The notes under the pieces: generated by a model
Databases searched by the model: none
What the model was told of the DNA's origin: nothing
What the model saw: only the letters and a program-made list of their open reading frames with translations
Shown: positions 2,318 to 27,444 of the stretch, piece by piece
Layout of the letters: each line of letters starts with the position of its first letter
How positions within the stretch are numbered: the stretch's first letter is position 1
Program-made: the position numbers and the translations under genes
IMG/VR virus record: IMGVR_UViG_3300042691_050159
Span: 1-27,444 of that record
Length of the DNA: 27,444 bases
Reading direction: 5' to 3' (one strand)
From: a virus

Positions 2318-2606
2318 CGTAATTCTCCTTCTTCCTTCCCGCTACCGGTGCCTTCCAGCGCGGGCTATCGGCCAACTTCTGCACATACGCGATTGGGTCT
2401 CCATCGAGATCCCGGATTGCGGCCTCACAAATCGCGGACATGAGCCCCGGGATGCCGCCCGGGAACGATTGCATCAGCTTAAAGATTCGACCGTACTCGT
2501 TGCGAGCGAGTTTCTTACCGGTCATTGCCGTATAGAAGTCGCCCATGCGACCCTGCTTATTCTTTGCGGACTGAATTTCGTTGCGCCACCAGACGAGATC
2601 GTTCAC
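2298..2606 (-). CDS. hypothetical protein upstream of the loader, 102 aa
   Basis: The ORF is open from an ATG at 2705, but that would overlap the nuclease gene by 103 bp. A GTG at 2606-2604 overlaps the nuclease stop as GTGA, the coupling used elsewhere in this operon, so I place the start there. The 102-aa product begins Asn-Asp-Leu-Val-Trp-Trp-Arg-Asn. It has a basic middle (Gly-Lys-Lys-Leu-Ala-Arg near residue 30) and a helical second half that ends in a Lys/Glu-rich segment. I recognise no family. Its place directly before a DnaC-like loader is where phages often keep a replisome-organiser or initiator subunit, so a DNA-binding accessory role is possible but only inferred. Confidence 0.7.
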   Translation of the reverse strand: MNDLVWWRNEIQSAKNKQGRMGDFYTAMTGKKLARNEYGRIFKLMQSFPGGIPGLMSAICEAAIRDLDGDPIAYVQKLADSPRWKAPVAGRKKENYDGIIQD

Positions 2607-3463
2607 TCGCCGTACATCTTCGTCAGCGCTGACTGGCGGATGGATGGCAGCACCGTAAGCAGCCCAGATGCTGTCTCCGGGAGCGGCTGAGGATGAGATT
2701 CCCACTTGTCACACAACTTCCTGAACTCACACGTCGCATGCGCGAACGCGGTTGGGTTTGGATAGATTGCACCCTTCTCCTTAGCATCAAGCATCGCCCG
2801 AACCGTCACATACAGCCGGTCGATATCGTCCTGCGTTCGGGTGGTGGTGCGCCGGTCCACATTTGGACCCTTGGAGTGCTTGCTGATGATGTTGAACGTC
2901 ACCTTCGGGTCATGGTTATAGTTCTGTCGAACAACGGAGACGTAGGCGGTTGCCTGAATGTCACCATGCTCGCGGCCCTCTTCCCACTTCCGTGTGGCGG
3001 TCTTGTGCTCAACAACATCGTTGGTGTTGGTCACCATGTCCAGCACCGACTTCAGCTTGATCGGGAGCTTTCCCAACCGGCTGTGTTCGATGTCGGCCAT
3101 AAAGGTGCGCTCAACGGCCTTCGCTGTCCAGTTGTCACCCTCAAAGATGGCTGCCTTCAGCATGTCTTCGCCAAGTGCAGACTGGCTAATCGGGTCCTTA
3201 TCGGACTCTTCGGCCCAGTTCACCTTGGCTGACTCATCGGCAAATGTTGCCTGATACAGCTTGATTGGCATGGTCAGGTCGCCGGTCTTCTTGCCACCGT
3301 TGATGGGTTCGTACCAGTTTGCAAGACCCGCGTGGACAGCAGTGCCCAGCGCGAAGAACGAGCTGGTCTTCTCCGTCCACAAGCCATTCTCATAGCGGTA
3401 CCACCACCGCAGAGGGCAGGCCTGGAATTCGCGGATCTCGCTGATGCTGACGTGCTCGCGCAT
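2603..3463 (-). CDS. PD-(D/E)XK nuclease, Cas4/RecB type
   Basis: This 286-aa protein carries the signature of RecB/Cas4-like exonucleases. The N-terminal Ser-Glu-Ile-Arg-Glu-Phe-x-x-Cys16-Pro is followed by Gly-Thr-Ala-Val-His44, Asp142 in the first active-site strand, Glu152-His-Lys154 as the E-x-K motif, and Gln170-Ala-Thr-Ala-Tyr as the QxxxY-like motif. Cas4 and AddB relatives bind an iron-sulfur cluster through one N-terminal and three C-terminal cysteines. Here the C-terminal set is His242-x2-Cys245-x5-Cys251, so one cysteine appears replaced by histidine. The start overlaps the annealing-protein stop as TAATG. Paired with that gene, it is likely to resect DNA ends for phage recombination, like an exonuclease/annealase two-component system. 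Confidence 0.88.
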   Translation of the reverse strand: MREHVSISEIREFQACPLRWWYRYENGLWTEKTSSFFALGTAVHAGLANWYEPINGGKKTGDLTMPIKLYQATFADESAKVNWAEESDKDPISQSALGEDMLKAAIFEGDNWTAKAVERTFMADIEHSRLGKLPIKLKSVLDMVTNTNDVVEHKTATRKWEEGREHGDIQATAYVSVVRQNYNHDPKVTFNIISKHSKGPNVDRRTTTRTQDDIDRLYVTVRAMLDAKEKGAIYPNPTAFAHATCEFRKLCDKWESHPQPLPETASGLLTVLPSIRQSALTKMYGE

Positions 3464-5138: not shown

Positions 5139-5147
5139 ATCATATCA
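5139..5147 (-). promoter_or_regulatory. extended -10 promoter element before the HNH gene
   Basis: On the minus strand the sequence TGATATGAT combines an extended-10 TGn with a near-consensus TATGAT hexamer (5144-5139). Transcription would start around 5132, only about five nt before the HNH ATG at 5127. The TGA is also the methyltransferase stop codon. There is no clear -35 box. This would let the HNH and downstream genes be transcribed separately from the methyltransferase. Confidence 0.5.
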
Positions 5148-6284
5148 GATTTCTCCGTGCAAGCGCATGTTTTCTACAATCCGAAGGCCAATCCATTCGG
5201 CTACTTGGCTCACTACGCCATTGCCACATGCGTCAGCCCGTGTCGTCTCATTAGATCGATCAAGCAGCGGATGTTCGATGCATGCGCCACTTGTCAAAAG
5301 GTGTTGACCAAAGACGCCCGAAGAAGAGAAGGCGGTTAGGGTGCTGAACGCCCCATCCTCTGTCCAGCGCTCCCAAAATCCGGCGCGTTGATTTCGCTCG
5401 GTCTTTCGGAACATCCGGATTGTGTCTGGGCTTGAGTTTGGAACCTGGGCTACGTGGTGGACTTGACGTGTAGACGTCGGAATCCGGGGACCAGCGTGTG
5501 GCCGTCCGGCCAGCCCATGAGCCGCTCCATCTCCAACGTAGTCAATCTTCGCAAAATCAAGCGCTGCTGCTCGATGGTGTCCAGGATCATCTGGTGTAGG
5601 TCCGGCGTAAAACCGTTCCTTGTTCCATCCGGAGACGTTGTGACCGAACGCCCAAGGTAATTCATTGCTTCCTCGCGTGTCAAGAAGAATCTCGCCGGCA
5701 CGACTGGTTCCACGATGTCCAAGAAGGAAGACTCGACGGCGCGGCTGGGGCACTGGGCGCCGTCCCCCATGCAATTGACAGCTTCCGAAGCTCGATGCAT
5801 CCACAGTTCGCCACGCCACGCCATACCCGAGTTCATCCATTTCCTGGAGGAGTCGCCCCATGTCTCGCCCGTTGTTTGAGGTAAGGAGTCCGGGAACGTT
5901 TTCAAGGAGGATCCACTCTGGTCCGAACGCTTCAACAAGGTTGAGGAACGAGAACGCAAGGACCGAACGCTCACCGTCAAACCCCCTTCGCTTTCCTGCA
6001 CTACTCAAATCTTGGCAAGGAAATCCTGCCGACCAAAGCGTAGCAGACTGCCAGGCTTCGTTCGTCTGATCCGTGCTCATTGCTGTAATGTCGCCAAAGT
6101 TTGGAATGCCGGGCCACTGCCGAGCAAGCACAGCTGACTGGTATGGGGCATTCTCGCAAAAAGCAACGGTATGCCAACCGGCCGCCTCGAGACCAAGATC
6201 AATCCCGCCCACTCCACTAAATGTGGAGAAATGGCTAAGCTTTCTTGCTGCGTTTTCCTTTTGGCTTTTTGTTATTTTTTTCAT
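5145..6284 (-). CDS. C5 cytosine DNA methyltransferase, possibly frameshifted
   Basis: The N-terminal half is unmistakable. In the 379-aa form, motif I Phe-Ser-Gly-Val-Gly-Gly is at 22-27, motif IV Gly-Phe-Pro-Cys-Gln has catalytic Cys90, motif VI Glu-Asn-Val-Pro-Gly is at 128-132, and motif VIII Gln-Pro-Arg-Arg-Arg-Val-Phe is near 180-186. The C-terminus has motif X (Cys-Gly-Asn-Gly-Val followed by Ala-Glu-Trp-Ile-Gly). Between VIII and X no in-frame motif IX is seen, and the stretch at about 5450-5650 looks like out-of-frame translation. A motif-IX-like block instead appears in the +1 frame. The reading frame extends to a GTG at 6341, but the ATG at 6284 lies just after a TACTAT box and inside the overlapping 51-aa gene, so I prefer it. 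The enzyme would protect phage DNA from host restriction if functional. Confidence 0.85.
   Translation of the reverse strand: MKKITKSQKENAARKLSHFSTFSGVGGIDLGLEAAGWHTVAFCENAPYQSAVLARQWPGIPNFGDITAMSTDQTNEAWQSATLWSAGFPCQDLSSAGKRRGFDGERSVLAFSFLNLVEAFGPEWILLENVPGLLTSNNGRDMGRLLQEMDELGYGVAWRTVDASSFGSCQLHGGRRPVPQPRRRVFLLGHRGTSRAGEILLDTRGSNELPWAFGHNVSGWNKERFYAGPTPDDPGHHRAAALDFAKIDYVGDGAAHGLAGRPHAGPRIPTSTRQVHHVAQVPNSSPDTIRMFRKTERNQRAGFWERWTEDGAFSTLTAFSSSGVFGQHLLTSGACIEHPLLDRSNETTRADACGNGVVSQVAEWIGLRIVENMRLHGEI
5450..6001 (-). other. overlapping +1-frame ORF with methyltransferase motif IX
   Basis: This open frame of 183 codons lies wholly inside the methyltransferase gene, shifted +1. Codons 151-170 (5551-5492) read as a textbook C5-methyltransferase motif IX: Arg-Arg-Leu-Thr-Thr-Leu-Glu-Met-Glu-Arg-Leu then Gly-Trp-Pro-Asp-Gly. 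The segment Val-Pro-Ala-Arg-Phe-Phe-Leu-Thr near codon 101 also resembles target-recognition-region sequence of phage methyltransferases. The earlier codons are a shadow of motifs IV-VIII in the main frame. The simplest reading is that the middle of the gene is now out of frame because of two compensating indels, either real or from assembly. A separate overlapping gene or a programmed frameshift cannot be excluded. Confidence 0.5.
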
Positions 6285-6390
6285 CGCTGTCGATAGTATC
6301 AGACGCAGGCTGTTTTGATTTTGGTTGACTGCGGATAACACGACAAGGAATGCAGAAGCACGGCTGTTGGTGATAAAGCTTCTCGGCCAT
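6235..6390 (-). CDS. small Cys/Lys protein, 51 aa
   Basis: The ATG overlaps the portal stop as TAATG (6392-6388), the same coupling used throughout this operon. The frame runs 51 codons to a TAG at 6235-6237. Near the N-terminus is Pro-Cys-Phe-Cys-Ile-Pro-Cys-Arg (cysteines 11, 13 and 16), a compact metal-binding-like cluster. The C-terminal third is very basic (Lys-Asn-Asn-Lys-Lys-Pro-Lys-Gly-Lys-Arg). It ends 50 bp inside the methyltransferase gene in another frame. No family is recognised. A small nucleic-acid-binding peptide is plausible from composition. The coupling and the absence of any other gene in this gap are the main reasons to call it. Confidence 0.6.
   Translation of the reverse strand: MAEKLYHQQPCFCIPCRVIRSQPKSKQPASDTIDSDEKNNKKPKGKRSKKA
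6293..6298 (-). promoter_or_regulatory. TACTAT -10-like box upstream of methyltransferase
   Basis: On the minus strand GATACTATC lies 8 nt before the ATG at 6284, and no Shine-Dalgarno precedes that start. The same box type occurs at two other gene starts in this window (9214-9219 and 16955-16960). Transcription 6-7 nt downstream of the box would give an essentially leaderless message. Confidence 0.4.
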
Positions 6391-8561
6391 TACCGCTTCT
6401 CGCGGGCTTCTACCTGGCGCATAATCTTGTTAGCCCAGCCCTGGCCAGGATTTCCGCCCCAGAGCGCCCAGGCAATGCGGCCAGCTGAGGGATAACCCTT
6501 CTCGCCGGGGTTGAACCCCTCTCCTTGCTTGTCGACCTCGTGTCGGGCAAGGAAGGCACGCATTTTTCGGACGCGGGCAATAGTCATCTTGTTGCCGATT
6601 AGCATACGGGCGGTTGTTTGGCCAGGCCCAATGCCCCCACGCCCAAACTCTTCGCGCCACTTCAACCCGCGCCTTGCTTCTGCCTTAACGGCGGAAGGGA
6701 CGCTAAGATTAATGCCGGAGTAATCTGCGGCAGCGTACTTGCTGGCGACATCTTCTGGTCCGTGCACATTCTGCACGCCAGCTGCCTTGTAGGCGCTACG
6801 AACCTCGGCGTCATTTTCAATGGCTTCTGTGACGTTTCCGTTTTCCTTAAGGATCTTGGAGATCTTGTACTTTTTAAACTGAAGGCCAGCCCCAGCAGGG
6901 AAATCAGAGAGATAGATAGCGTCGTGCGGGACGTCGTTGTCTTCCAACCACTCCCTAGTTTCCTCAAGGCGCTTAGCGGATCGCGCACTCACAATGAAGA
7001 TGCGATGGTTTTCAGACTTACGATTAAGGTAGTCAACTACCGCCTCATTAGGCTTTTCGCTGCCGTCACTGGTAGTAAGAGTTCCGTCAATGTCGCAGAC
7101 AATAATTGGGTCGCCATCCGCCTTGGATGTCTGGGCCTGCGGGGCATTCTCAGGAGTGTTGTCTGGCGTCATGTCCTCACCTTGCGGAGGGGTCGGTACG
7201 CCCTGAGGGTTGTTGGCGGTTGGCGGTGTGTTGTCGTCCGGTCCTGACTGGCCACCGGCGACAATATTGTTCAAATACTTCATGTAGACATCCATTGGCA
7301 TGTATCCCTGTGGGCTCGGGAGCCAGATCTGCTCGCCCTGCTCGCCAACTCCGTCCTGACCGCGCTCGCGCAGGGCGTCGTTCAAGCGAAGCCATGGGAG
7401 CCCGGCAAGTGCTGTCTTGTAGTAGGCGGCCATCTCCCCTTGGCTTTGTCGGCCCATGTCGGTATAGGCAAAGCGCAGGTCCTGGTCGTAGCGCCACACG
7501 ATTTCACGGGTAATGTACTCGGCAATGAGGTCGAGCAACGGAGCAATGCCAACGTCTTGGGTAAAGGCGGCACCAGTCTCAGAAGTGCTGCGGTTGACGT
7601 CAAAGCTAATGCCGATGTCTTGTGGCTGCACGCCAAAAACGGCACAGATCTTGCGGGCAAGGTACACCTGCCACTCCATAAACTGCATATCTCGGTTTGA
7701 TGACGCTAATGGCATCCACTGAATGCCCTTGCCGCCGCCGGTAATGGCGATCTGACTTCGACCAGCAATCTCGGCATCCCAGTAGGCGCGGAACGCATCT
7801 ACCTGGTCAGCGCGGACGCCCTCGCCAAGGTGCAAAACGCCTGGAGGCGCTGCCGCCGTTACCGCTTTTGCGTTGTATGCCGCAGCTGCAAGGTCAGCCT
7901 CAATCGTTTCGGCAAGAACCTCTAGCGGAGAAAGTCCAAGTGGTGTGTATGTTACCGGGTTGGCAACAATGACAATAAGCTCATGGTTTAAATAGCGGGC
8001 AATCTCGCGCCCGTCGTGGTCAAACTCGTAATAGCGCGGCTGATTTGGGTCGCTGCCGTCCCAGCCGGAGTCGAAGACAAGCTTCGATGCGTCTTTATTG
8101 TACAGGGCCGAAATAGGACGATTCGCGGAACCGATTCTGCCGCCATTCGTCGGCACCACTTCAATTACCCCTTGGTCAAGAACCAAAATGTCTTCAATGA
8201 CCGGCTCCATCAGAGAGCGCCATGACTCCATCTTTGGGTTTGGCATGCGAAGAAGGTCTTTAATCTCTTGAACCTTCTTGGCGTTTACTGGGCTGTCAGA
8301 ATCAACGGCAACAATGTCCCACTTGGCGCGGCTAACCTGGGTGCGGCGCAGGTTGATTGCGGCGCGAATCCAGGGATTAGTGCGTGACCAGCGTCGAAGC
8401 TGTTGCGTGCTTCGCTTCGCGTGATGGGTAACGCCAGCGACGCCCCTGGCGTACGGGGCGTCATCATACTCAGGAGTAGTTGACAGAGCCTTTTCTGACC
8501 CGCCAAAAGTGATGCCAGCGCCGCCAAGAATGCGGCTTAGGAGTGATCGGCTCTCTGCCAT
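6390..8561 (-). CDS. portal protein fused to HAD phosphatase and C-terminal domain
   Basis: Residues 1 to about 440 are a phage portal protein, the dodecameric ring at the capsid vertex through which DNA is packaged. The segment Arg-Arg-Trp-Ser-Arg-Thr-Asn-Pro-Trp-Ile-Arg and the later Val-Phe-Gly-Val-Gln-Pro-Gln-Asp are typical. A Pro/Gln/Asn-rich linker (about 440-485) leads to a HAD-type domain with Asp490-Ile-Asp492-Gly-Thr, a Val-Ser-Ala-Arg-Ser motif II and a Lys-rich motif III. This resembles polynucleotide 3'-phosphatase domains. The last 100 residues (Gly-Leu-Lys-Trp-Arg onward, with Trp-Gly-Gly-Asn-Pro near the end) form a small conserved domain I have seen attached to other phage structural proteins. 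At 723 aa it is far longer than a plain portal. The ATG has AAGGA 4-5 nt upstream and a TAATG overlap. Confidence 0.9.
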   Translation of the reverse strand: MAESRSLLSRILGGAGITFGGSEKALSTTPEYDDAPYARGVAGVTHHAKRSTQQLRRWSRTNPWIRAAINLRRTQVSRAKWDIVAVDSDSPVNAKKVQEIKDLLRMPNPKMESWRSLMEPVIEDILVLDQGVIEVVPTNGGRIGSANRPISALYNKDASKLVFDSGWDGSDPNQPRYYEFDHDGREIARYLNHELIVIVANPVTYTPLGLSPLEVLAETIEADLAAAAYNAKAVTAAAPPGVLHLGEGVRADQVDAFRAYWDAEIAGRSQIAITGGGKGIQWMPLASSNRDMQFMEWQVYLARKICAVFGVQPQDIGISFDVNRSTSETGAAFTQDVGIAPLLDLIAEYITREIVWRYDQDLRFAYTDMGRQSQGEMAAYYKTALAGLPWLRLNDALRERGQDGVGEQGEQIWLPSPQGYMPMDVYMKYLNNIVAGGQSGPDDNTPPTANNPQGVPTPPQGEDMTPDNTPENAPQAQTSKADGDPIIVCDIDGTLTTSDGSEKPNEAVVDYLNRKSENHRIFIVSARSAKRLEETREWLEDNDVPHDAIYLSDFPAGAGLQFKKYKISKILKENGNVTEAIENDAEVRSAYKAAGVQNVHGPEDVASKYAAADYSGINLSVPSAVKAEARRGLKWREEFGRGGIGPGQTTARMLIGNKMTIARVRKMRAFLARHEVDKQGEGFNPGEKGYPSAGRIAWALWGGNPGQGWANKIMRQVEAREKR

Positions 8562-9424: not shown

Positions 9425-11545
9425 GTGGATTTCAAGGTTTATACAAATGCCCTGAAGGCATACGAAGCGCCAAGCGGCGACCTCTATGTCACTGGGACAA
9501 CATCTTCGACAATCCGTGACCTGCATGGCGATGAGATGACCCTCAACGCTATCCGCACTATGGCCGAGACCGCCAAGCAGAATATGACGATCTTCCTAAA
9601 CCACAATTACAACGTTCCCGAGGACCTTTTTGGCTCGGTTACCGATGCCCGCGTTGTTAAGCGATTTGACGCCGAGTCCGGCTCCGAGGTCTACGACCTT
9701 GACATTGACGTTTTGGTGTGCAAAGAGGACGAAAACCCAGAGGCCATGCGCGCTTTCAAGGCAATTAAGCGCGGCGTGAAGCTTGGGCTCTCCATCGGGG
9801 CCCGCGTTGATCGTGTCTCCAAGAAGAAGGACGTCAAGACCGGCGAAGATACCTATGTTATTGATTCTGTCAAGCTTATGGAAGCGTCTGTTGTTGGCAT
9901 CCCCGCTAATCAGCGCTCATATCTACAAAATGCTGTCAAGAGCCTGAAGGCGGCGGAAAAGTCAGGCGAGCTTGTCGTTGAGGAGAAGGCAGCAACCGAT
10001 TTCGTTGAGGGGGATTTCGTTTCCTGGGGCTCCAGCGGCGGCACCGCCCGAGGGCGTATTGAGCATGTAATGCGCGAGGGTACCCTTGGCGTTCCGGACT
10101 CTGACTTCAAGATTGAAGCCACACCAGACGATCCGGCTGCCCTTATTAGGATCTGGCGCCAGTCCAGCGATGGCTGGGGCGAGACCGATAAACTAGTAGG
10201 CCACAAGTGCTCTACCCTTCGAAAAATTGATTCCCTTAAGGGCATCTTTGACATTGACACAAAGGCCGTTGAGGTCGAGGGTGAGCCAGCTCCGGGCCGA
10301 GAGGCTCTTGTTGCGTCGCTTCAGGACCTTCTTGCAGACACCACTGCGTTCTATCTAAAAGCGCATGGCGCCCATTGGAATGTTGTTGGCGAAGAGTTCC
10401 AGCAGTACCACGAACTCTTTGGCGAGATCTATGAGGACGCCCAGGGCGCCATTGATCCGACGGCAGAGCTTCTTCGCAAGCTGAATGCCCCAGCCCTTGC
10501 AGACATCCGCGAACACGCATCCCGAGCAGAGGGGGAGCCTGTCGCCGATGAAAATGACGCAGAGAGCCTTGCCGGGGCGGTTTATGCCGCCAACGAGATG
10601 GTTCTCGATTGCATCGCCCGCGCTATTGATGAGGCCGCGCGCCTCAACATGCAGGGCATTTTGAATTTCCTGGCAGAGCGCCAGGACATGCATCAAAAGT
10701 GGTCATGGCAGCTTCGTGCTTCTTTGGCCCCTGAAGAGTCTGAGTCGGAACCGGCTGAGACGCCAGAGGCCCCTGAAGTGGGCGATACTGAAGGAGACAC
10801 TATCGTGGATACTGAAAAGGCCACGCGGGTCACCGTCACTGTCACGCAAAGCGATGACAAGGAGAAGGTTAAGCCCGCAGAAGAGAACGAGGCCATTGAG
10901 GCCCAGGGCGCAGAGGCTCCTGCCGCTGTTGCCAAGTCTGATACTGAGCCCGTAGCGGAGCCCGTGGTTGAGGAGCCGGCCGTTGAGCCTGCTGCTGAGC
11001 CCGTCGCCGAACCCGCTGCTGAAGAGCCTGCTGCTGAGGAGCCCGTCGATCCGGCCCATCAAGCCTTGCGGGATCTTGGGGCTGTCCTTGTTCGCGCCAG
11101 CGCCGATGAGCGCGCGCGAATCATTTCTAAGGTCGCTGAGCTCGCCTCTGACGGCGAGCCTGAGGCTGTGGTTGAGGCTGAAGAGCCAAAGCCTGAAGTT
11201 GCGCCAGAGGTTGCTGAGGAGCCCGCTGTGGCCCCTGTGGAGCCCGAGGCCGAGGTTGCCGTCGAAGCTCCGGCTGTCGACGAAGTAACTGCTATCGCCA
11301 AGTCTGCGCTGGATGCAGCCTTTGCCGCTCAGGAGGAGGTCGCAGCCGTCAAGGCTCAGCTGACCGAACTGCTTAGCCAGAAGGCCACGGTCGAGGCTGA
11401 TCTTGCAAAGGCACTTGATGTCGTCGGGCGTCTGATGGATCTTCCATCTGGCCGCAAGGCACACTCAGTTCCTTCAAACAATTCTGGGACGAAGGCCCCT
11501 TGGCTTTCGCCCTATATCCAGCGCATGCTGGAAAGTGAGGAGTAA
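9425..11545 (+). CDS. prohead protease fused to Tudor-like, Dps and scaffold-like regions
   Basis: With the GTG start the product is 706 aa. Residues 1 to about 185 are an HK97-type prohead (S78/U35-like) protease, with His60 in Leu-Asn-His-Asn, Ser123 in Gly-Leu-Ser-Ile-Gly, and the Val-Val-Gly-Ile-Pro-Ala-Asn ending. Residues 190-275 match the DUF2945/Hva1-Tudor domain (Gly-Asp-Phe-Val-Ser-Trp, later Thr-Pro-Asp-Asp-Pro-Ala). Residues 290-430 are a Dps-type ferritin-like four-helix bundle with His317, His329, Asp344 and Glu348. These have the same spacing as the E. coli Dps ferroxidase ligands His51, His63, Asp78 and Glu82. The rest is a Pro/Glu/Ala-rich linker and a coiled coil (about 622-670), which looks like a built-in scaffold. 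The stop is four bases from the capsid gene. Protease and scaffold functions are well supported by family; an iron or DNA-protection role in the head is inferred. Confidence 0.88.
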   Translation: MDFKVYTNALKAYEAPSGDLYVTGTTSSTIRDLHGDEMTLNAIRTMAETAKQNMTIFLNHNYNVPEDLFGSVTDARVVKRFDAESGSEVYDLDIDVLVCKEDENPEAMRAFKAIKRGVKLGLSIGARVDRVSKKKDVKTGEDTYVIDSVKLMEASVVGIPANQRSYLQNAVKSLKAAEKSGELVVEEKAATDFVEGDFVSWGSSGGTARGRIEHVMREGTLGVPDSDFKIEATPDDPAALIRIWRQSSDGWGETDKLVGHKCSTLRKIDSLKGIFDIDTKAVEVEGEPAPGREALVASLQDLLADTTAFYLKAHGAHWNVVGEEFQQYHELFGEIYEDAQGAIDPTAELLRKLNAPALADIREHASRAEGEPVADENDAESLAGAVYAANEMVLDCIARAIDEAARLNMQGILNFLAERQDMHQKWSWQLRASLAPEESESEPAETPEAPEVGDTEGDTIVDTEKATRVTVTVTQSDDKEKVKPAEENEAIEAQGAEAPAAVAKSDTEPVAEPVVEEPAVEPAAEPVAEPAAEEPAAEEPVDPAHQALRDLGAVLVRASADERARIISKVAELASDGEPEAVVEAEEPKPEVAPEVAEEPAVAPVEPEAEVAVEAPAVDEVTAIAKSALDAAFAAQEEVAAVKAQLTELLSQKATVEADLAKALDVVGRLMDLPSGRKAHSVPSNNSGTKAPWLSPYIQRMLESEE

Positions 11546-11548
11546 ATC

Positions 11549-12778
11549 ATGAGCGAACTCAACGAGAAGCTGCAGGATGTGCAGAAGGGTCTTGACACCC
11601 TTGGCACTGCCCCGCACCTTGTCGGCCGAGCTGCCGACGAGTCCATTGATGTCGCCGAGGCCTATGCTACTCAGCGCGAACTTCGCAAGAAGTTCTCGAA
11701 GATGAGCCGCGCGGACCTCAGCGAGGCGCTCGATATCCAGGCTACCCGCGAGACGGGCAAGCAGGCTTCGTCCGAGGTTCTTAACCGCCTTGCGGTTGCG
11801 AACCCGAACATTGCCAAGCTGCTCGATGCCAGCGGTGGCGCGGCGCTTATCCGCCAGGATCTCGAGCCAATCCTTTACGCGCTGTTTGTAAAGAAGTTCC
11901 CGTTCTTTGACCGCATCCGCAAGGAGCCGGCAAACGGACTGGTGCACGCTTTCAATCAGCAGTCGGCCTACGGTGACGCTGTCTTCCAGACGGAGACCGG
12001 CACGGTTACCGATGATGTCAACACCTATGCGCGCCAGACGACCAACGTGGCTGTCCTGGCGACCCGCCGTGGTATCACCCTGAAGTCGCAGTTTGCGATT
12101 ACCCAGGGCGGCGCTCCGGGGCAGCAGGGCCTTTCGACCGAGCTTGAGGGTGGCGTCACTGCCATCGCCCGCAAGCTTCAGAAGACCCTCTTCCAGGGTA
12201 ACGCTGATACGACTTCAGGCGCCGGTGCAACCACCGAGCTTGGGGCGTACGATGCGAACGGCTTCACTGGCCTCCGCAAGCTCCTTGGCGCTGCTGCCGG
12301 CACGGCACAGATCGCCAATAAGGGCACGGCTGCCTATCTGAAGACGATCAACGAGAACGTTGCCAGCATCTTGAGTGCAGGTGGCAATCCGTCGGCCGTT
12401 CTTCTTCACCCAACTGACTACGCTGGTCTTGTGAACGAAGTGACGAACCTTGTTCGTTACAACGCTCCTGGTCAGGGTGATCAGGTCATGGGTCTGACCC
12501 TCGGTTCCGTTGTCACGGCCGCCGGCGAGCTTCCGCTCCTGGCTGTCCCTGGCGACAGCATCGGGACGTATACCCTCAGCTCGGTCGACTACCGCGACAT
12601 GTATGTCGTGGACGAGTCGGTCTGGTCGATGCCGTACCTCGGTTCGGACTCGATTACGACGCTTGAGATTCCGGTTGGTGTCAACGGCGCCCTTTCGCGC
12701 CTTTACATCATGTACTGCATGTTCGGTCTTGCTAACAAGGCCCCGCAGTTCAACGGTAAGGTTCGCGTTTCGATCTAA
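11549..12778 (+). CDS. major capsid protein, HK97 fold
   Basis: The 409-aa protein follows the protease, as in HK97-type head modules. It has an N-terminal charged helical delta-like region (1 to about 100). The capsid domain begins near Ala-Ser-Gly-Gly-Ala-Ala-Leu-Ile-Arg-Gln, and the E-loop-like Gln-Thr-Glu-Thr-Gly-Thr-Val segment lies near residue 150. The C-terminal Ala-domain strand ends Pro-Gln-Phe-Asn-Gly-Lys-Val-Arg. Codon use is more biased towards C-ending codons than in neighbours, as expected for the most abundant phage protein. The upstream gene supplies protease and scaffold in one chain, which would cut the N-terminal region on maturation. A strong terminator follows within 25 bp. 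Confidence 0.92.
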   Translation: MSELNEKLQDVQKGLDTLGTAPHLVGRAADESIDVAEAYATQRELRKKFSKMSRADLSEALDIQATRETGKQASSEVLNRLAVANPNIAKLLDASGGAALIRQDLEPILYALFVKKFPFFDRIRKEPANGLVHAFNQQSAYGDAVFQTETGTVTDDVNTYARQTTNVAVLATRRGITLKSQFAITQGGAPGQQGLSTELEGGVTAIARKLQKTLFQGNADTTSGAGATTELGAYDANGFTGLRKLLGAAAGTAQIANKGTAAYLKTINENVASILSAGGNPSAVLLHPTDYAGLVNEVTNLVRYNAPGQGDQVMGLTLGSVVTAAGELPLLAVPGDSIGTYTLSSVDYRDMYVVDESVWSMPYLGSDSITTLEIPVGVNGALSRLYIMYCMFGLANKAPQFNGKVRVSI

Positions 12779-19538: not shown

Positions 19539-22500
19539 GTGGCCGAGATTGACAATGTAGCAAGAGTTGGCATATCGCTTGACTCTGCCGCATTCCAGGA
19601 CGGCGTAGCCCGAACGCTCCGCGATATTGACAAGCTTCTTAGCGGCCTCAAGGCCCTGCAGTCTGCAAATCGACAAATCTCCCTTGCGTCTGGTGGCCTT
19701 CTTGGCGGCGGATCGAAGTCCCCCGTTGCCGGGTTTGCAAGAGACATCACCCGGACTGCGATACCGGCCCTGCGTGACATGGAGCGCAATGCGATCCGTG
19801 TTGGCGGGGCCGTTCGTCGTTCCGTACAGGAAGTTACCAGGCTCAACGATATGCTTTTGCGGGCAGAGCGAAATGCGGGCTCTGCTGGCGGCATGCAATC
19901 CGACAAAAGCTCAAAAATGCGTCGCGGTCAGAGCGACTATATGCGAAAGATTCTTGAAGAGGCCCAGCGGCAAGGATTCAAGCTAGAACGAACTTCTAAG
20001 GGCCACTTTGAACTTATCCCGCCCGACAAACAATATCCAAAAATTTTCTTTGGCGGAACCCCAAGCGACCGCAGGTCCGCTGAAAACTTCCTTACTCGAC
20101 TAAGAAGGTCTGGGTTTAAAGACCCACGGCGAGAAAACGATATGTCCCGGGACCTCGCCTTTGACAGGCCGCCGCGAGCCAAAAAGCAACCCAGAACAGC
20201 CGCCCCTCAAGTTGAGAGCGCTCCCGTAGGCTTTTCTGACCCACGCAGCCCTAGCGGGCGCATTGAGGCGAGATACGTTGTTCGAGCTCTTGAAGAGCTG
20301 GTGACCTCAAGGCAGTCCGAATACCCTCAATACCTGCAGCCGCGCGCTCGCGGTGGCGCCGGCCGCTCTGAAAGCGTTGCCTCTCGCCAGCTCATTGAGT
20401 CAATTTCTGGCGCATTTGATCCAAGGCAGATTTTCTTTGCGGGACCAAACCTTGCAGAGGGCATTGTTGCAACGATTCGGTCTGAGGTTTCCAGGGCTTC
20501 ATTAGTCCTTTCCGGCAACGCTCGCACACTCGGCATGAAACAACTTGCCTCTACGCCAGAGGGCCAAAGCAAGATCATTGCAGCAGTTGGAAAATTTATT
20601 GAATCAAACCAAAGCGAGCTCGGGGGGAAAGCCGCCGCCGCCGCCGCCGCCAAAGAGGCTTTGCGAATTAAAGGGTCCGGTCAGACTCCTGTATTAGTTC
20701 GAGAGCTTGTGAGCACTCTGGAACAACTTGGCACACGCGAAGGTGGTCGACTTGGCTCCATGCTTAACTTCTCTACCGGCATGACCCCGGCAGAAGTTGC
20801 GCAAGCGATTGCTAGGACTATTGCACGGATTCCAGGCGGCTTTGAACGCGGTAACCCTGGGGCAATAATCAAAAAGGGTGGACCGGGCGTTGATGAGCTT
20901 GAGAGGCTTGTTCTTTCCGAAATCCCAATTGATCGAATTCGTTCGGAATATCAAACTTCTAAGGGCCAAGCAAGAAGCCCAAAGCTGCAACAGCTCATGG
21001 AGGGCGTACTGCTCTCTACAGCATTTGGTAATAACGCTGCAACTGAGAGCATGATCGGCAGAATTCTGGAGGGCGAAAAGGGCGGCATTCCAGCGCCGCT
21101 ACTAAGAGAACTCCAAAAGGCGGTTGGGCCACAGCTGCAGCTTCGAGGAAGGATTGCGTCCGGAGAGATTCCAGCTGGAATGGACCCAATCTACAACGCG
21201 CTTCCAGAGGCCATTGAGCTAATCAATGCTGCACAAGCCGTCGCTGGCGGCGCACGCCGAATGTCGCGTGTTGCGGGGAATCTTGAAGAGGCCAAGAAGC
21301 TTGTTACGGCCCAGAAGACCGCGTTTGGCGAGCCGTCCGAGCAGGGTGTAGAGCTTGCTGCTTCTATCGCTGCCTCTGGTCGTGGTCTCCCAGCATTCTT
21401 CTCTGCGCTCTCATCGTATGGCATGCGCGCCACATCATCCGCCCAAGGTGGATTTGGCCTTGACCCAAGCGCCCTCGCCGCAGATCCGACTGCCGCGCTT
21501 CGCATTGCTCAGGCAGCAGCCAACACAATGCTCGCTGGCATTAAGGCAGGTGCCGGCAAGGGCACAAAGGGCGTAACCACCCTTATCGAGGAAGCGGTTG
21601 AGTCCGCAATTAGGACATTTGCAACCAGTGATCCTGGCTACCTTGGCTCTTTGGCTGCTGCCAGTAGCTCTGGCGGATCTTCGGCTGCCGGCGGCGGATC
21701 TGGCGGAGGGAAAAAGCCACCGCGCAGTAGGAGGGGAAATATGGAAGACCCTCCAGAGGATGAGCCAGAAGAGCCTATTGCAATGCGCCGCCCAGAAAGC
21801 TCGCGCGCCTATCGTCTTAATGAGCGAGCCATCGGCACTGCTCGCGGCTCAGCAAAGGCCCGAGCAGGCGGATATCTTCCATATGAAGAGTCTAGCCCCG
21901 CCCGCCAGGCGCAGCTAAATACAAACCTAACCCGGGGATATTTAAAGCTTACCGAGGGTCTTATCAGGGTTTCTGAGACGGGAAGCCATCCTTTGGGTGC
22001 AACGCATATTGAGGGCATGCTTAAAGAGCTTAATAACGCATACTCCCTTATGGGCTCTCGCGGACTGCAGGTTCCAGAACTTTCCCAACACATGGCGATT
22101 GTCAGCAGCGTTCTAAAGAAACTTGGGATTGATCCTGAAACTGTTCCAAACTCAGTTTCTGGCGCGGCCATACCAGGGTCGGCTGCCTTCACAACAGCCG
22201 CTACAACGGCGGCCACAACGGCGGCCACAACGGCGGCCACAACGGCGGCCACAACGTCGGCAACATCCGCTGCGACCACCGCTGCAAATCAAGTAGCGAC
22301 AGCAACGGCTGCCACAACGGCTGCTGAAATTGTTGCCAAAACACCTGCAATGCAGCGCTTTGAGCGGATGATGACTGGTACATCTGGCCCGCTTGGACCA
22401 CGCACGGCCGGAACAAAGTTTCTTACCGAAACCGTTGAGAGTGTCCTTCCTGGCATTACGCAAGCATTTAAACCTTTACTTGAAGAGAATTTTGCCTCAC

Positions 22501-25500
22501 GTGTTCTTACGCACTTTAGGGCATCGTTCCGGGGTCTTCCCAACGAAAGCGAATTCTTGCAAGGCCAGACAAGCACCGCCGCTAGTGGTGGAGCCCTAGA
22601 GATAGCGCATCTCAGTCGCGGATCCGGAGCAATTCTTCGTACTGCAATTCACGAGATTGCACATGGGGCATTTGAGCGAATGGTTGAAGGAGGATACGTA
22701 CCGCCAAAGCTGACAACACATTATGGCCCGAAGGGAGAAAATCTTGGTCTAAAAACCCATGAGCAAATTCTTTCAGCTGAAAATGCTGTTGGCTTTAGCC
22801 ATGCCGATCCAATGTTCTACCAGCTACAAGCAGAGATTTCAAAGAAAACCGGTGGCCTCCTTGCGCAGCTCGCATTCCACGAGTACGGGCAATCACTTCC
22901 TGGGGGGATTGCGCCAGGGGTTAATAACCTTGGCGTTGGGGTAGCGGCACAGCAGCTAACTCCCCACCTTCAGCAGCTTGCATTCCAAACTAATGCCGCC
23001 CTTCGATCTGCTTCGACCATCTTTGTTGAGTTTGCCACCAAGATTCACGAAACCGCGCGAAAGGTTCAGGGTGGAGGGGCGCCAATTCAGGAACTTTTGA
23101 CACAAGTATCAACGGGTATGATGGAGCTTAGTGCATCCTCAAAGATGTTCCCAAAAACATCGTTTGTTGAGATCGCTTCAATCCTTGCGGAAACCATTCG
23201 GGCTTACGGGCAGAGCGGCATTCGATCTAATGCCCCACAGCTGTTCCAGGGCTTAACAATGACTTTTGAGCAAGCGCTCCAGCGAGCGTTTGTGCAGGCG
23301 TCGGGATCGCTTCTTAAGCCGGGCAGCGAGCTGCGCGGCATCACAGGAATTACAAACCGCACGCCAGAGATGATGGCTGCGTTTATGGCTAACGCTTCAG
23401 AAACAGAGAAGATGGCTGTTGCAATGGCAGTCAACCCTGCTGCGTTCGAGAGTATCCTTAAAGGTCAAAATATCGGAACGTTGAAGGACGATGCCGGGAT
23501 TCAGCAGCAACTTCAAGCGCTTACCAAAACTATTCTTGAGGGAGTTATACGACAAATTAACCAAGAAGTTCTTGGCGCTGGTGGGCTTGTACCAAAGGGC
23601 AGCATTGTTGGCATACCGCTAAGGATGACGCGAGCCGGTGGAATGCTTCCTGCGGGAGAGTATTCAACCCAATCTGGTGCACAAGCATATCTTCCTGGGG
23701 GTGAGCCGGTATACAACCTCCCATTCAGCGGCGGAAGGGGGACCGGACTTGTTCCATATGGCGGCGGCCCGAGATCGTTTGTTGATCCACGTGTTACTAG
23801 GGAATACATTAACGAACGCATGGGCACGTTTACGAGATACGGCAGAAGCCTCGCTGAACGCTTTACGCCAATCGGGGCATTCCGCGCATCCCGTCTTGGT
23901 TACTCTGGACAATTTGAAGAGAGGGAAGAAGCTGAGGCTGCTGCCAAAAAAGAATTCCGAGGAAACGCTCTTGCCGCAGAGGCTGCGGCAAAGGCAAATA
24001 GCCGCCTAAATCTTGTTATTCAAGACGGGCGAGTCCAGTTTGGGCAACTTGCACGGGTTTTGACAGAGGCAAATAGCGGTCTTACCCAATCGGTTACCGG
24101 GGTCTTGTCGCTTGGTCTTTCGTTTGCTATCGGCCAGCAAGCAATCTTTGCCTTTGCTGGCGTTATCCAACACCTCATGGGCGGCATCATTGGCTTCAAC
24201 GCAATGCTCGAATCCGCAGGTGTTGGATTTAACACGCTGTTCAAAAACGCCGGAAGAAGCGTTAGGGAGGCTGACGAGCAAACTCGAACCACGATTGAAA
24301 CCCTTCGTGAGTTCGCTAACGTTACAAACTTCAGGTTCGGGGATCTCCAGGTTGCCGCCGTCCGCATGCAAGCATTCGGCTTTGAGGTTGACGCCGTAAA
24401 GGCAAAGGCCAAGGGGCAAATGCCAATCTTGGAGTCGTTTATCAGCCCATACGCCACAAACGGGCTGAAAGAATTCCGTGGCGCACTTGTCAACATTGGT
24501 GACGCAGTTGCAGCACTCGGTGCTGAGGACGACAAGCTTCGCCGCGTAACCTATGCCTTGGGTCAAATGAACTCTGCTGGTCGCGTGTACCAGAACGACA
24601 TGATGCAGCTGGCCAATGCCGGTATTGCTGGTTATGAGATCCTTGCAAATGCATTGCTGGCAGAGCTTGAGCGAACGGGGCAGACTGCAAGCGCAACATA
24701 CAAGAAGCTCCTCAACCCGCAAACCGCCATTGAAGAAATCCGACGGCTTGCCCGAATTGGCGCTCTCTCTGGCCCTGGCGGAGTCCAGGCAATCCTGCTC
24801 GGCCTAGAAGAGAAGTACGGTGGCGGAATGAAGGCCTTCTCGCGCACTTTCCAGGGCGCAATGACAACGGTTGCAGACACGTCACAGTCCCTGGTTGCCA
24901 CTGCCTTTAACCCACTCTTCTCTGTTATCCGTGACCTTATTGCGGGAACTGAAGCAAAAGAGTTTGAAGACGGTCTTGCAACATTCCTGCAAAGCGAAGA
25001 GGCCACCAGGGGCGCAAATCGCTTTGCCTCAGCTGTAAGGCAGCTCTCTGAGGGCATTAGATCTGGTCTCCCGGAGGGCCTCAGGGTTGCCGGCGGCTTT
25101 ATGGACGCCATTCTCAAGACCCTTGGCGGTATTGGTGGCGCGGTAGCGCAAAGCGGCGGACCGCTTAATGCCTTTATCTCTTCATCTATTGCGGGATTCA
25201 AGGCATTTGCCGAAATACTCTCAAACGATGTTATTCAAAAGCTTGGTTCTTCAATTATTGTTGCCCGAGCCCTATTTGCCTTTATTTCTAGCAACCCTCT
25301 TGTTGCAACCTTGGGGGCAAGCACTGCGCTTGTTGGCTTCTTGGCCCAAGCGTACCAAAATAATCAATTTGGCGTTCGCAAGGCATTTGATGACAACGCC
25401 CCGCAAGTTCTTAGCGCGCTCAACACCATTGGGTCAGAAATTATGCCGGCGCTCTCAAGTGCCGCCGGGGGCGCGCTTGGGACGCTCGCCTCAACAATAG

Positions 25501-27444
25501 CATCAGCATTCTCGGCCGCAGCACCGATTATTCGCATCATCCTTGAGGCCTTTGCCGGTATTTCAAAGATTGTTGCGCCTCTTGCTCCGCTATTCGGCTT
25601 TATGTTTGCATCCTTTATCGGCGGGAAGCTGCTTATTGACGGCGCCGCTCTTGCAATGGCCAAGTTTGCAGAAGCGGGACAAAGAGCTGCCGATAGAGTA
25701 GAAGACATTAAAATCAGGATGTTTGCGCTTAACGCACTTGGTGCAACAAGAACATTCGGCATGCAAACCATTGGACAGGCACGAATGTATGACGACGAAG
25801 AAAATCTTGTTGCATCTGGATACCGGCTGCAAAATGAGCCAGGCTACGGCTACAACGCCCCGGGTCTCCTAAAGGTTGCTCATAACCTAGAGAGAAGGGC
25901 GGCTGAAAGAGCCGGCGTCGAGTTTATTGGTCCAGATGATCCAATGTCCCTTGTGGATAAGCCACTGCAAGAATCATACGCCGTCGGCATTCTAAAGATA
26001 CTAAAGGAGGCGCAAAAATCCGACCCTGAAGGTTACAGGGCAGCGCTTGAGGCCGCTGATGTAAACGAGCGCGCCGACATCGAAAGGGCAGTTGCTGCTG
26101 GGCTAGAGGCTGTCTACGGAAAACTTTTGGGTTTCAAGGCTCGACTCGATTCGGCAAACGGGGCACTTGCAAAACTTGGCGTAATTGCCTCAGAAGTTAA
26201 AAACAAGCTTGGCATGGTCGGTAACGCAATGTTTGCCATTGGTATGCTTGGGAGCACCATTGCAAACCTAACTGGAAATCAGGGCTTTGCTGATGCGTTT
26301 GGGTTTATTGCGCAGCTAGGGTTTGCACTCCAAGGTTTTAAGGCTCTTGGTGAAGCGCTCAAACCGCTTTTGTTTGTTCTTGATAAATTTGGCAAAATAG
26401 TTACTATATCAACGACTGGTATCGTTGCGGCAATTGCGGCTTTTGCCGCCGCCCTTGGATTTGCTACAGCCTGGATTACAGGAAACCTAACCGATCTGCC
26501 AACACCAGAGAAGAAACAAAAAGACGATGTTATTAACACTAGAAAACGAATTGAAGGTGCGCTTGGTAAAGATCGCGCCATGGAAATGTTCCCGGAGCTC
26601 TATCCAGACAGATATGCATCGTCTCTTTATAACCCAGACAACGTTTTCCTTGCGGGCGGACTCTCTGGAAATCCCGGCGGTAACTTTGCCTTTAATCAGA
26701 TGGAGGCAGAAACTCAATACGGCGGAATCGACACATCGCGCGCAAAGCAATATCTTCTAGATAACCCGTCCTGGTCAATGAGCACAACTGGAATTATTGG
26801 CAAGACGACCGCTGATCTTGAAGACAAGATCCGGGGATACTTACGCGAGGGTCTGAGTCCAGAAGAAGTGGCCCAGACCATGGGAATCGATGCGGGGTAC
26901 GTCAAAGAGCTTTATCAGAAGTGGTACAAAGCTGGAGACTCTGAGGCCACCGAATACATCAGCCTGCTCACTAAGGCTCTTGACGCAACCGGAGAGCTTT
27001 TGCAGGCGGCTCAAGAGGCGATGCAAAAAGCCATGGATGCCTTCCAGACGCCGCTTAACCGCCTTATGTCCCGAGCGCAAACGGCTATTCAGGCAATGTT
27101 TGAAGAGGAACAGAAGCAACTTGAGCAAGAACGAGCTGCAGCCCTTGCCAACGTAGAGGTTCTCTACGGTGGGGAAATGGTCCGACTTGGCGTCCTTGAA
27201 CAGCAGTACGAAACGCTCCAAGATCAAGCGGAGCAGATGGAGAAGCTGCAGGAGCTTGAGGATGCCAGAACCAAGGCCTCTGAGGCTGCCCTTGCTATGT
27301 TCGATGCCGGCACTGATCCGCTCGAGAGGGCTCGCGCTGCTCGTGATGCTGCACGTGAGCTGTTCCGCGACGAGCAGAAGGCCCAGCTTGACGCTATGGC
27401 CGCAGCCATTGAGGCAGGCAAGCAAAGCACCGCGTATGTTGGGA
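19539..27444 (+). CDS. tape measure protein, incomplete at right edge
   Basis: The frame starts at a GTG at 19539, five codons after the chaperone stop in the same frame. It stays open for at least 2,635 codons to the window edge. Features in order: an N-terminal coiled region; Ala/Gly-rich low-complexity stretches (about 370, 720); a Thr-Thr-Ala-Ala repeat (885-908); an HEIAH zinc-peptidase motif at His1038-Glu-Ile-Ala-His1042; and a hydrophobic segment at about 1513-1557, the usual membrane-interacting part. Further hydrophobic segments are near 2004-2040 and 2291-2317, and a Gln/Glu-rich coiled coil follows from about 2484. Large size, Ala/Gly/Gln composition and place after the frameshifted chaperones define the tape measure. 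At about 1.5 angstrom per residue the tail would be roughly 390 nm or longer. Confidence 0.92.
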   Translation, partial: MAEIDNVARVGISLDSAAFQDGVARTLRDIDKLLSGLKALQSANRQISLASGGLLGGGSKSPVAGFARDITRTAIPALRDMERNAIRVGGAVRRSVQEVTRLNDMLLRAERNAGSAGGMQSDKSSKMRRGQSDYMRKILEEAQRQGFKLERTSKGHFELIPPDKQYPKIFFGGTPSDRRSAENFLTRLRRSGFKDPRRENDMSRDLAFDRPPRAKKQPRTAAPQVESAPVGFSDPRSPSGRIEARYVVRALEELVTSRQSEYPQYLQPRARGGAGRSESVASRQLIESISGAFDPRQIFFAGPNLAEGIVATIRSEVSRASLVLSGNARTLGMKQLASTPEGQSKIIAAVGKFIESNQSELGGKAAAAAAAKEALRIKGSGQTPVLVRELVSTLEQLGTREGGRLGSMLNFSTGMTPAEVAQAIARTIARIPGGFERGNPGAIIKKGGPGVDELERLVLSEIPIDRIRSEYQTSKGQARSPKLQQLMEGVLLSTAFGNNAATESMIGRILEGEKGGIPAPLLRELQKAVGPQLQLRGRIASGEIPAGMDPIYNALPEAIELINAAQAVAGGARRMSRVAGNLEEAKKLVTAQKTAFGEPSEQGVELAASIAASGRGLPAFFSALSSYGMRATSSAQGGFGLDPSALAADPTAALRIAQAAANTMLAGIKAGAGKGTKGVTTLIEEAVESAIRTFATSDPGYLGSLAAASSSGGSSAAGGGSGGGKKPPRSRRGNMEDPPEDEPEEPIAMRRPESSRAYRLNERAIGTARGSAKARAGGYLPYEESSPARQAQLNTNLTRGYLKLTEGLIRVSETGSHPLGATHIEGMLKELNNAYSLMGSRGLQVPELSQHMAIVSSVLKKLGIDPETVPNSVSGAAIPGSAAFTTAATTAATTAATTAATTAATTSATSAATTAANQVATATAATTAAEIVAKTPAMQRFERMMTGTSGPLGPRTAGTKFLTETVESVLPGITQAFKPLLEENFASRVLTHFRASFRGLPNESEFLQGQTSTAASGGALEIAHLSRGSGAILRTAIHEIAHGAFERMVEGGYVPPKLTTHYGPKGENLGLKTHEQILSAENAVGFSHADPMFYQLQAEISKKTGGLLAQLAFHEYGQSLPGGIAPGVNNLGVGVAAQQLTPHLQQLAFQTNAALRSASTIFVEFATKIHETARKVQGGGAPIQELLTQVSTGMMELSASSKMFPKTSFVEIASILAETIRAYGQSGIRSNAPQLFQGLTMTFEQALQRAFVQASGSLLKPGSELRGITGITNRTPEMMAAFMANASETEKMAVAMAVNPAAFESILKGQNIGTLKDDAGIQQQLQALTKTILEGVIRQINQEVLGAGGLVPKGSIVGIPLRMTRAGGMLPAGEYSTQSGAQAYLPGGEPVYNLPFSGGRGTGLVPYGGGPRSFVDPRVTREYINERMGTFTRYGRSLAERFTPIGAFRASRLGYSGQFEEREEAEAAAKKEFRGNALAAEAAAKANSRLNLVIQDGRVQFGQLARVLTEANSGLTQSVTGVLSLGLSFAIGQQAIFAFAGVIQHLMGGIIGFNAMLESAGVGFNTLFKNAGRSVREADEQTRTTIETLREFANVTNFRFGDLQVAAVRMQAFGFEVDAVKAKAKGQMPILESFISPYATNGLKEFRGALVNIGDAVAALGAEDDKLRRVTYALGQMNSAGRVYQNDMMQLANAGIAGYEILANALLAELERTGQTASATYKKLLNPQTAIEEIRRLARIGALSGPGGVQAILLGLEEKYGGGMKAFSRTFQGAMTTVADTSQSLVATAFNPLFSVIRDLIAGTEAKEFEDGLATFLQSEEATRGANRFASAVRQLSEGIRSGLPEGLRVAGGFMDAILKTLGGIGGAVAQSGGPLNAFISSSIAGFKAFAEILSNDVIQKLGSSIIVARALFAFISSNPLVATLGASTALVGFLAQAYQNNQFGVRKAFDDNAPQVLSALNTIGSEIMPALSSAAGGALGTLASTIASAFSAAAPIIRIILEAFAGISKIVAPLAPLFGFMFASFIGGKLLIDGAALAMAKFAEAGQRAADRVEDIKIRMFALNALGATRTFGMQTIGQARMYDDEENLVASGYRLQNEPGYGYNAPGLLKVAHNLERRAAERAGVEFIGPDDPMSLVDKPLQESYAVGILKILKEAQKSDPEGYRAALEAADVNERADIERAVAAGLEAVYGKLLGFKARLDSANGALAKLGVIASEVKNKLGMVGNAMFAIGMLGSTIANLTGNQGFADAFGFIAQLGFALQGFKALGEALKPLLFVLDKFGKIVTISTTGIVAAIAAFAAALGFATAWITGNLTDLPTPEKKQKDDVINTRKRIEGALGKDRAMEMFPELYPDRYASSLYNPDNVFLAGGLSGNPGGNFAFNQMEAETQYGGIDTSRAKQYLLDNPSWSMSTTGIIGKTTADLEDKIRGYLREGLSPEEVAQTMGIDAGYVKELYQKWYKAGDSEATEYISLLTKALDATGELLQAAQEAMQKAMDAFQTPLNRLMSRAQTAIQAMFEEEQKQLEQERAAALANVEVLYGGEMVRLGVLEQQYETLQDQAEQMEKLQELEDARTKASEAALAMFDAGTDPLERARAARDAARELFRDEQKAQLDAMAAAIEAGKQSTAYVG
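22191..22262 (+). repeat. 12-bp tandem repeat within the tape measure gene
   Basis: Four perfect copies of ACAACGGCGGCC occupy 22203-22250, flanked by one degenerate copy on each side (22191-22202 and 22251-22262). Each unit encodes Thr-Thr-Ala-Ala, so the protein has a flexible Thr/Ala linker just before the region with the peptidase motif. Copy number could vary by slippage without breaking the frame. Confidence 0.9.

Follow-up and report, generated by a model that had tools for sequence, protein, structure and literature searches.

The window, that is, the whole stretch of 27,444 nucleotides analyzed here, derives from an uncultured tailed phage and contains, on the plus strand, a gene for a 706-residue polyprotein with a GTG start, in which an S78 prohead protease, a Tudor-like domain (PF11160), a Dps domain, and a disordered/coiled-coil scaffold tail follow one another. 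The gene adjoins the portal and major capsid genes, as is expected of an S78/HK97-type prohead protease. The features of the locus are as follows.

6390–8561, minus strand: portal protein gene, upstream, with a C-terminal HAD-phosphatase-like domain and a PHROG 2859 module
9425–11545, plus strand: whole ORF of the protease–Tudor-like–Dps–scaffold polyprotein, 706 residues, GTG start with Shine-Dalgarno sequence GGGAGGT
9425–9985, plus strand: S78 (HK97-type) prohead protease domain (Pfam, PHROGs)
9602–9604, plus strand: protease H60, the likely catalytic His, unchanged across 16 family members
9791–9793, plus strand: protease S123, the likely catalytic Ser, unchanged across 16 family members
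9986–10258, plus strand: Tudor-like β-barrel (PF11160/DUF2945), a movable module in the protease family of the window
10313–10726, plus strand: Dps (ferritin-like) domain, residues 297–434 (Pfam, PHROGs, PDB, AlphaFold)
10373–10375, plus strand: His317, equivalent by alignment to E. coli Dps His51
10409–10411, plus strand: His329, equivalent by alignment to E. coli Dps His63
10421–10423, plus strand: Gly333, aligned with E. coli Dps Asp67; the residue here varies among phage Dps
10454–10456, plus strand: Asp344, equivalent by alignment to E. coli Dps Asp78
10466–10468, plus strand: Glu348, equivalent by alignment to E. coli Dps Glu82
10671–10738, plus strand: 3′ coding end of Dps, present as a remnant (83–85% DNA identity) in Dps-less L014/L015
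10727–11050, plus strand: Glu/Ala/Pro-rich disordered linker, residues 435–542 (full-length model)
11276–11437, plus strand: long C-terminal helix, residues 618–671, scaffold coiled coil, in nearly all complete family members
11492–11542, plus strand: terminal helix with the conserved C-terminal peptide APWLSPYIQRMLESEE
11549–12778, plus strand: major capsid protein gene (PHROG 752), directly 3′ of the polyprotein ORF

An example peptide from the fused Dps part is NMQGILNFLAER. The frame (9371/9425–11545) is open end to end, and because a Shine-Dalgarno sequence lies just 5′ of the GTG at 9425, the residue numbering of His317, His329, Gly333, Asp344, and Glu348 stands. The protease part matches Peptidase_S78 (PF04586; E = 6e-6; 26.8 bits against a cut-off of 21 in Pfam) and PHROG 80 (4.6e-7), with Ser123 lying within the motif GLSIGA; from family knowledge of S78 proteases, His60 and Ser123, unchanged in the 16 members, are presumably catalytic. 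The Tudor-like domain (Hva1_TUDOR in Pfam, 7e-5) falls just short of the cut-off in the window and passes it in relatives, L006 for example. The full-length model (mean pLDDT, 60.5), of which the module layout alone was used, consists of folded modules with low-confidence linkers at residues 160–190, 272–287, and 438–542, and a long C-terminal helix. An internal start making Dps separately was rejected, since no ATG, GTG, TTG, or CTG occurs in frame at residues 241–310 around the Dps boundary, and a separate Dps product is thus unlikely. At the 3′ end of the ORF, the last 84 codons (11291–11542) show a synonymous divergence of 0.14–0.26 from L002–L005, as compared with ~1 or more in the protease, which may reflect recent recombination or a constraint at the DNA level.

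Two head proteins of this phage, the portal and the protease polyprotein, carry extra domains; in the portal, the HAD-phosphatase-like domain lies at residues about 473–600 and the PHROG 2859 module at 616–721. Against phage records, the portal gives matches of only ~23% to Bacillus and other phages, and the major capsid protein gives no match, so that neither places the phage taxonomically. Elsewhere in the window, an open frame of >2600 codons (19539–27443, plus strand), probably for a tail tape measure or giant virion protein, runs off the end, and the minus strand encodes a C5-cytosine DNA methylase (5145–6341), a PD-(D/E)XK nuclease (2603–3463), and an IstB-like AAA ATPase (1643–2317).

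Residues about 297–434 are a real Dps domain. They match PF00210 (Ferritin) with E = 1.3e-11 and 45 bits against a cut-off of 24.5 in Pfam, and residues 295–434 match PHROG 3636, a Dps-type family annotated 'DNA binding protein', with E = 5e-23. Among solved structures, the nearest in sequence is P. aeruginosa Dps (8ff9; 1.3e-15 in a phmmer search of the PDB); when a profile of the family is used as the query, PDB Dps is matched at 2e-28. AlphaFold models the domain, at a pLDDT of 90.7, as a four-helix bundle with a short Dps-type helix in the BC loop (helices 14–40, 46–73, 82–88, 100–127, and 131–155 in domain-model numbering). The initial annotation had proposed a Dps domain inside the prohead protease from the spacing of four metal ligands, and had named the lack of a ferritin-like structural match as grounds for giving the proposal up; such a match was found, the top 50 PDB fold matches in Foldseek being all Dps. 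The ORF, the domain order, and the named residues are as it claimed, with Pfam, PHROGs, PDB profiles, and AlphaFold in agreement, and the ligand spacing shared with E. coli Dps reflects homology; chance is rejected in view of the overwhelming similarity. In comparison with bacterial Dps (P. aeruginosa PA0962 8ff9, V. cholerae 3iq1, and E. coli), the BC-helix fold, the H51/H63/D78/E82 ligands, and the HWN motif are common to the window domain, with a TM-score of 0.82–0.89 to 8ff9. Bacterial Dps, however, is a free protein of about 160 residues, whereas that of the window is a module in a 706-residue capsid protease, and at position 67 most of the bacterial Dps examined have Asp/Glu, the window domain Gly.

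Alignment to E. coli Dps pairs His317, His329, Asp344, and Glu348 with H51, H63, D78, and E82. None of these four residues varies across 110 distinct phage Dps domains, and W52 and N53 are equally constant; His occupies position 48 in 100 of the 110 and in most bacterial relatives compared. Asp or Glu at position 67, as in the canonical carboxylate-type ferroxidase centre, is absent from the window. In noting that the Asp67 equivalent is missing, the initial annotation was correct as to Gly333, but this is no special loss: position 67 takes nine residues in the 110 phage domains (G28/E28/A18/L12/S10/Q7/N4/D2/K1) and Met in two bacterial plasmid Dps, and Gly333 as a lesion was rejected because the position varies freely in the family. 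In E. coli Dps, the high-affinity site is formed by H51 and H63 with E82 of the neighbor, and the low-affinity site by K48, D67, and D78 (PMC6150300). By this site assignment, the window Dps retains the high-affinity metal ligands, the equivalents of H51, H63, and E82, and may have a weaker second metal site. Asp67 is no defining feature of Dps, since Nostoc Dps4, with a His-type ferroxidase centre and a non-coordinating Asn67, still oxidizes Fe(II) with O2 (PMC6675082); position 67 is non-acidic there as in the window, although the Nostoc ligands are His78 and His164 and the phage domain retains Asp78. Between the window and its orthologues, dN/dS of the Dps part is 0.04–0.10 wherever dS (0.5 to about 3; saturated for L032) could be estimated, which points to strong purifying selection on it as a protein.

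In having an N-terminal Ser protease, a scaffold-like tail, and portal and major capsid neighbors, the window ORF resembles other HK97-type protease–scaffold ORFs (PF04586, PHROG 80), from which its family differs by a variable cassette region (Dps, zero to two Tudor domains, DUF5824, and others) before the tail. We surveyed its orthologues with the protease domain alone as the query, not conditioned on Dps, and obtained 47 complete non-redundant proteins; in all but one, the protease is paired with the C-terminal scaffold region, and the stretch between them varies. The middle is Tudor in 18, Tudor–Tudor in 10 (and in one more without the tail), and empty in 3, and it bears Dps in the arrangements Tudor–Dps (6), Dps–Tudor (4), Dps only (4), and Tudor–Dps–Tudor (1). 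Two of the four with Dps only (L189 and L194) have a half-Dps without helices A/B and without any ligand, and DUF5824 occupies the middle slot of L203. Some orthologues without Dps are ~90% identical in the protease, and some carry a deletion scar: in Dps-less L014, L015, and L018, a degenerate Dps C-terminus remains (ADRQDADVQRSSQPFASLAQ against AERQDMHQKWSWQLRASLAP), and the DNA of L014/L015 matches the window from 10671 onward at 83–85%. Loss of Dps by deletion has therefore happened. Judging from these orthologues, Dps is not fixed in the protease family of the window; it behaves as a swappable cassette that is present, moved, halved, or deleted, and is dispensable for building these heads. 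No second Dps was found in any of five fusion-bearing genomes (83–91 kb), nor any Dps in eight Dps-less records (27–91 kb), records of both sets being possibly incomplete. The suggestion of the initial annotation that Dps forms a shell component gained no support, and the Dps-less sister lineages argue against a needed structural part.

Scans with Dps profiles, which favor relatives of their queries, gave at least 149 distinct Dps domains among the matches listed, at least 84 of them within ORFs of ≥260 residues, a ratio that is no population estimate. Among the matches listed, 33 of the 59 non-redundant fused proteins match Peptidase_S78 at 1e-3, and at least 38 match a head protease when L043, L044, L046, L079, and L091 are included. 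Dps follows the S78 protease in the window and L070, and precedes it in L071, L075, L102, and L138; L043/L091 belong to PHROG 859/18402 and L046 to PHROG 2753, L044/L079 are of the PHROG 9427 type with a weak S78 or S78_2 match, and L072-type proteins match PHROG 18299 weakly. In the Dps tree, the family of the window forms one clade (98% SH-aLRT), and the fused or stand-alone status needs at least seven changes; the deep forks are poorly supported, so that no exact number of fusion events is given. Because Dps joins one functional class of genes, in different families and in different orders, the pattern suggests that the capsid interior matters for the fused Dps. The architecture is unusual, as the initial annotation had stated. 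When the window protein, its Dps part, and one Dps–S78 relative were used as queries, 50,697 phage records yielded no protease–Dps fusion.

Other modules were observed in the fused proteins. The PHROG 2859 domain, present at the C-terminus of the window portal, occurs in 16 of the 59 Dps-bearing fused proteins among the matches listed (with matches in L043, residues 105–208, and L143) and is another traveling head module. A module of about 110 residues, TGRAWDGAAAKARIFSWAGFDG...LKGSYKLPFADVVDG, follows Dps in L034 and L005, is found also in L075 and L102, and looks by eye common to two protease families that otherwise differ; L075, L102, and L138 also resemble one another, by eye, at their N-termini. 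A second large fusion class has Dps followed by a DUF5824-like domain (L084, L110, L121, L142, L255, and L261). The 804-residue protein at L289:4560–6971 contains Dps and then a kinase-like GGGPAAGKTT motif, and is probably the one of the 59 with a Zeta_toxin match in Pfam.

Stand-alone phage Dps (Salmonella phage 7-11 gp073, Proteus phage Privateer gp068, and Synechococcus phage S-SRM01) have the same four ligands as the window, but, unlike it, are encoded by separate genes unfused to head proteins. In phages 7-11 and Privateer (Grimontviridae), the Dps gene lies amid nucleotide-metabolism genes, and the other known free phage Dps genes examined lie among mostly hypothetical genes. In viral contigs, the neighbors of free Dps are mixed, replication-initiation and unnamed families being the commonest; the general notion that phage Dps is a head protein was dropped, as these neighbors are mixed rather than head genes. 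By gene context, the link of Dps to the head holds for the fused form only, and since the gene neighborhoods differ, free and fused phage Dps may serve different stages. A scan of bacterial genomes gave only three MAG contigs and pointed to no clear host; it used phage-clade peptide patterns, so it is no measure of bacterial Dps.

HK97-type proteases are active within the prohead, where they digest both themselves and the scaffold. Our preferred reading, to which we assign a probability of about 0.5, is that Dps is a functional cassette that travels as cargo, covalently joined to the prohead protease/scaffold, into the head, where it would act on iron and peroxide. Dps would be made in one chain between the protease and the scaffold tail, and would enter the prohead interior with the protease, as the working of HK97-type proteases implies. 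During head maturation, the protease would presumably cut its own flexible linkers and release the compact helical Dps, which would stay, at least partly, with the packaged DNA; before cleavage, the fused chain might only dimerize. Fe(II) would be bound and oxidized at inter-subunit sites composed of His317 and His329 with Asp344′ and Glu348′, in the head or after ejection into the next cell, and the accompanying consumption of peroxide would protect the phage DNA or buffer early oxidative stress. From the analysis, this reading can draw on the homology and fold of Dps, its unchanged ligands, the purifying selection on it, the modular linkers, its gain and loss as a cassette, the recurring fusion to different head proteases, and a sole Dps copy in the genomes checked. 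We infer the packaging, release, oligomerization, ferroxidase activity, and benefit of the fused Dps; entry into the head in particular is argued for by the action of HK97-type proteases together with several precedents. Packaged head proteins of SPN3US are processed by the protease (PMC10052503), T4 Alt and P1 DdrB are packaged effectors (reviewed in PMC5512222, in whose text ferritin and Dps are absent), and a ferritin-like protein was detected by mass spectrometry in preparations of Vi01-like phages, for which the iron-entry idea of the authors was unsupported in the single host tested (PMC10892097). T4 Alt, P1 DdrB, MuF fusions, and SPN3US head proteins are likewise multidomain and linked to head genes, some being cleaved and packaged or injected; unlike in these, the carrier in the window is the maturation protease itself. 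Against the cargo reading count the many sister phages without Dps in this ORF or elsewhere in their 27–91 kb records, the mixed or DNA-metabolism neighborhoods of stand-alone phage Dps genes, the absence of the canonical fifth ligand in the window, and the general expectation that fragments released by the protease exit the head (PMC10052503).

It is also conceivable, if unlikely, that Dps is an assembly device whose fold self-associates as a dimer or dodecamer and clusters protease–scaffold chains into the prohead core, iron being secondary or absent. Dps folds do oligomerize, the domain sits beside the coiled-coil scaffold tail, and iron stabilizes the E. coli Dps oligomer (PMC6150300); yet Dps is absent from orthologues whose proteases are ~90% identical, in some of which a deletion has left a scar, Dps and Tudor occur in either order, Dps precedes the protease in other families, and four ligands kept in 110 of 110 domains are more than oligomerization alone should need. 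Slightly less probable than this is that Dps works in infected cells ahead of or alongside assembly, controlling iron/ROS or binding DNA as it replicates, and is destroyed on maturation, the protease fusion merely giving late, abundant expression or bringing DNA near the procapsid. The frequent location of stand-alone phage Dps genes among replication and nucleotide-metabolism genes is in line with such a role, as are the free Dps and Mn-catalase of gut phages ('Gratiaviridae'), which have been interpreted as helping against oxidative stress (PMC8008677), but action throughout the cell requires no fusion, and the head-protease fusion nevertheless recurs across families in both orders. Compaction of DNA in the head by Dps together with the Tudor-like barrel, with the ferroxidase as a leftover, appears improbable: Dps proteins do bind DNA, but the name of PHROG 3636 that would speak for it is an annotation only, and the four strictly kept metal ligands are unneeded for pure DNA binding. 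A functionless, decaying insertion or an assembly artefact is scarcely credible, since, although the half-Dps of L189 and L194 and the scarred orthologues prove that decay occurs, the dN/dS of 0.04–0.10 and the invariant ligands refute it for the full-length domain, and the same fusion on many independent contigs from many metagenomes led us to reject the artefact.

The Dps domain itself belongs to a known family, and free phage Dps genes are known; new is the protease-embedded, recurrent, cassette-like arrangement, as the literature searched contains no description of Dps or ferritin fused to a head protease, let alone inside capsid maturation proteases of several families. Tentatively, at somewhat under even odds, we propose that several tailed-phage lineages separately made the head maturation protease a delivery vehicle for Dps, and that the protease–scaffold slot serves generally as a site for cargo cassettes. 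If so, virions would contain a mini-ferritin that protects DNA or controls iron/ROS at infection, and the gap between protease and scaffold would offer a natural port through which proteins could be loaded into phage heads as cargo. If Dps stays in the head, phage particles carry an iron-oxidizing protein, which matters for how much iron virions contain and for how their DNA survives peroxide stress, a question that near-identical phages with and without the Dps cassette make directly testable.
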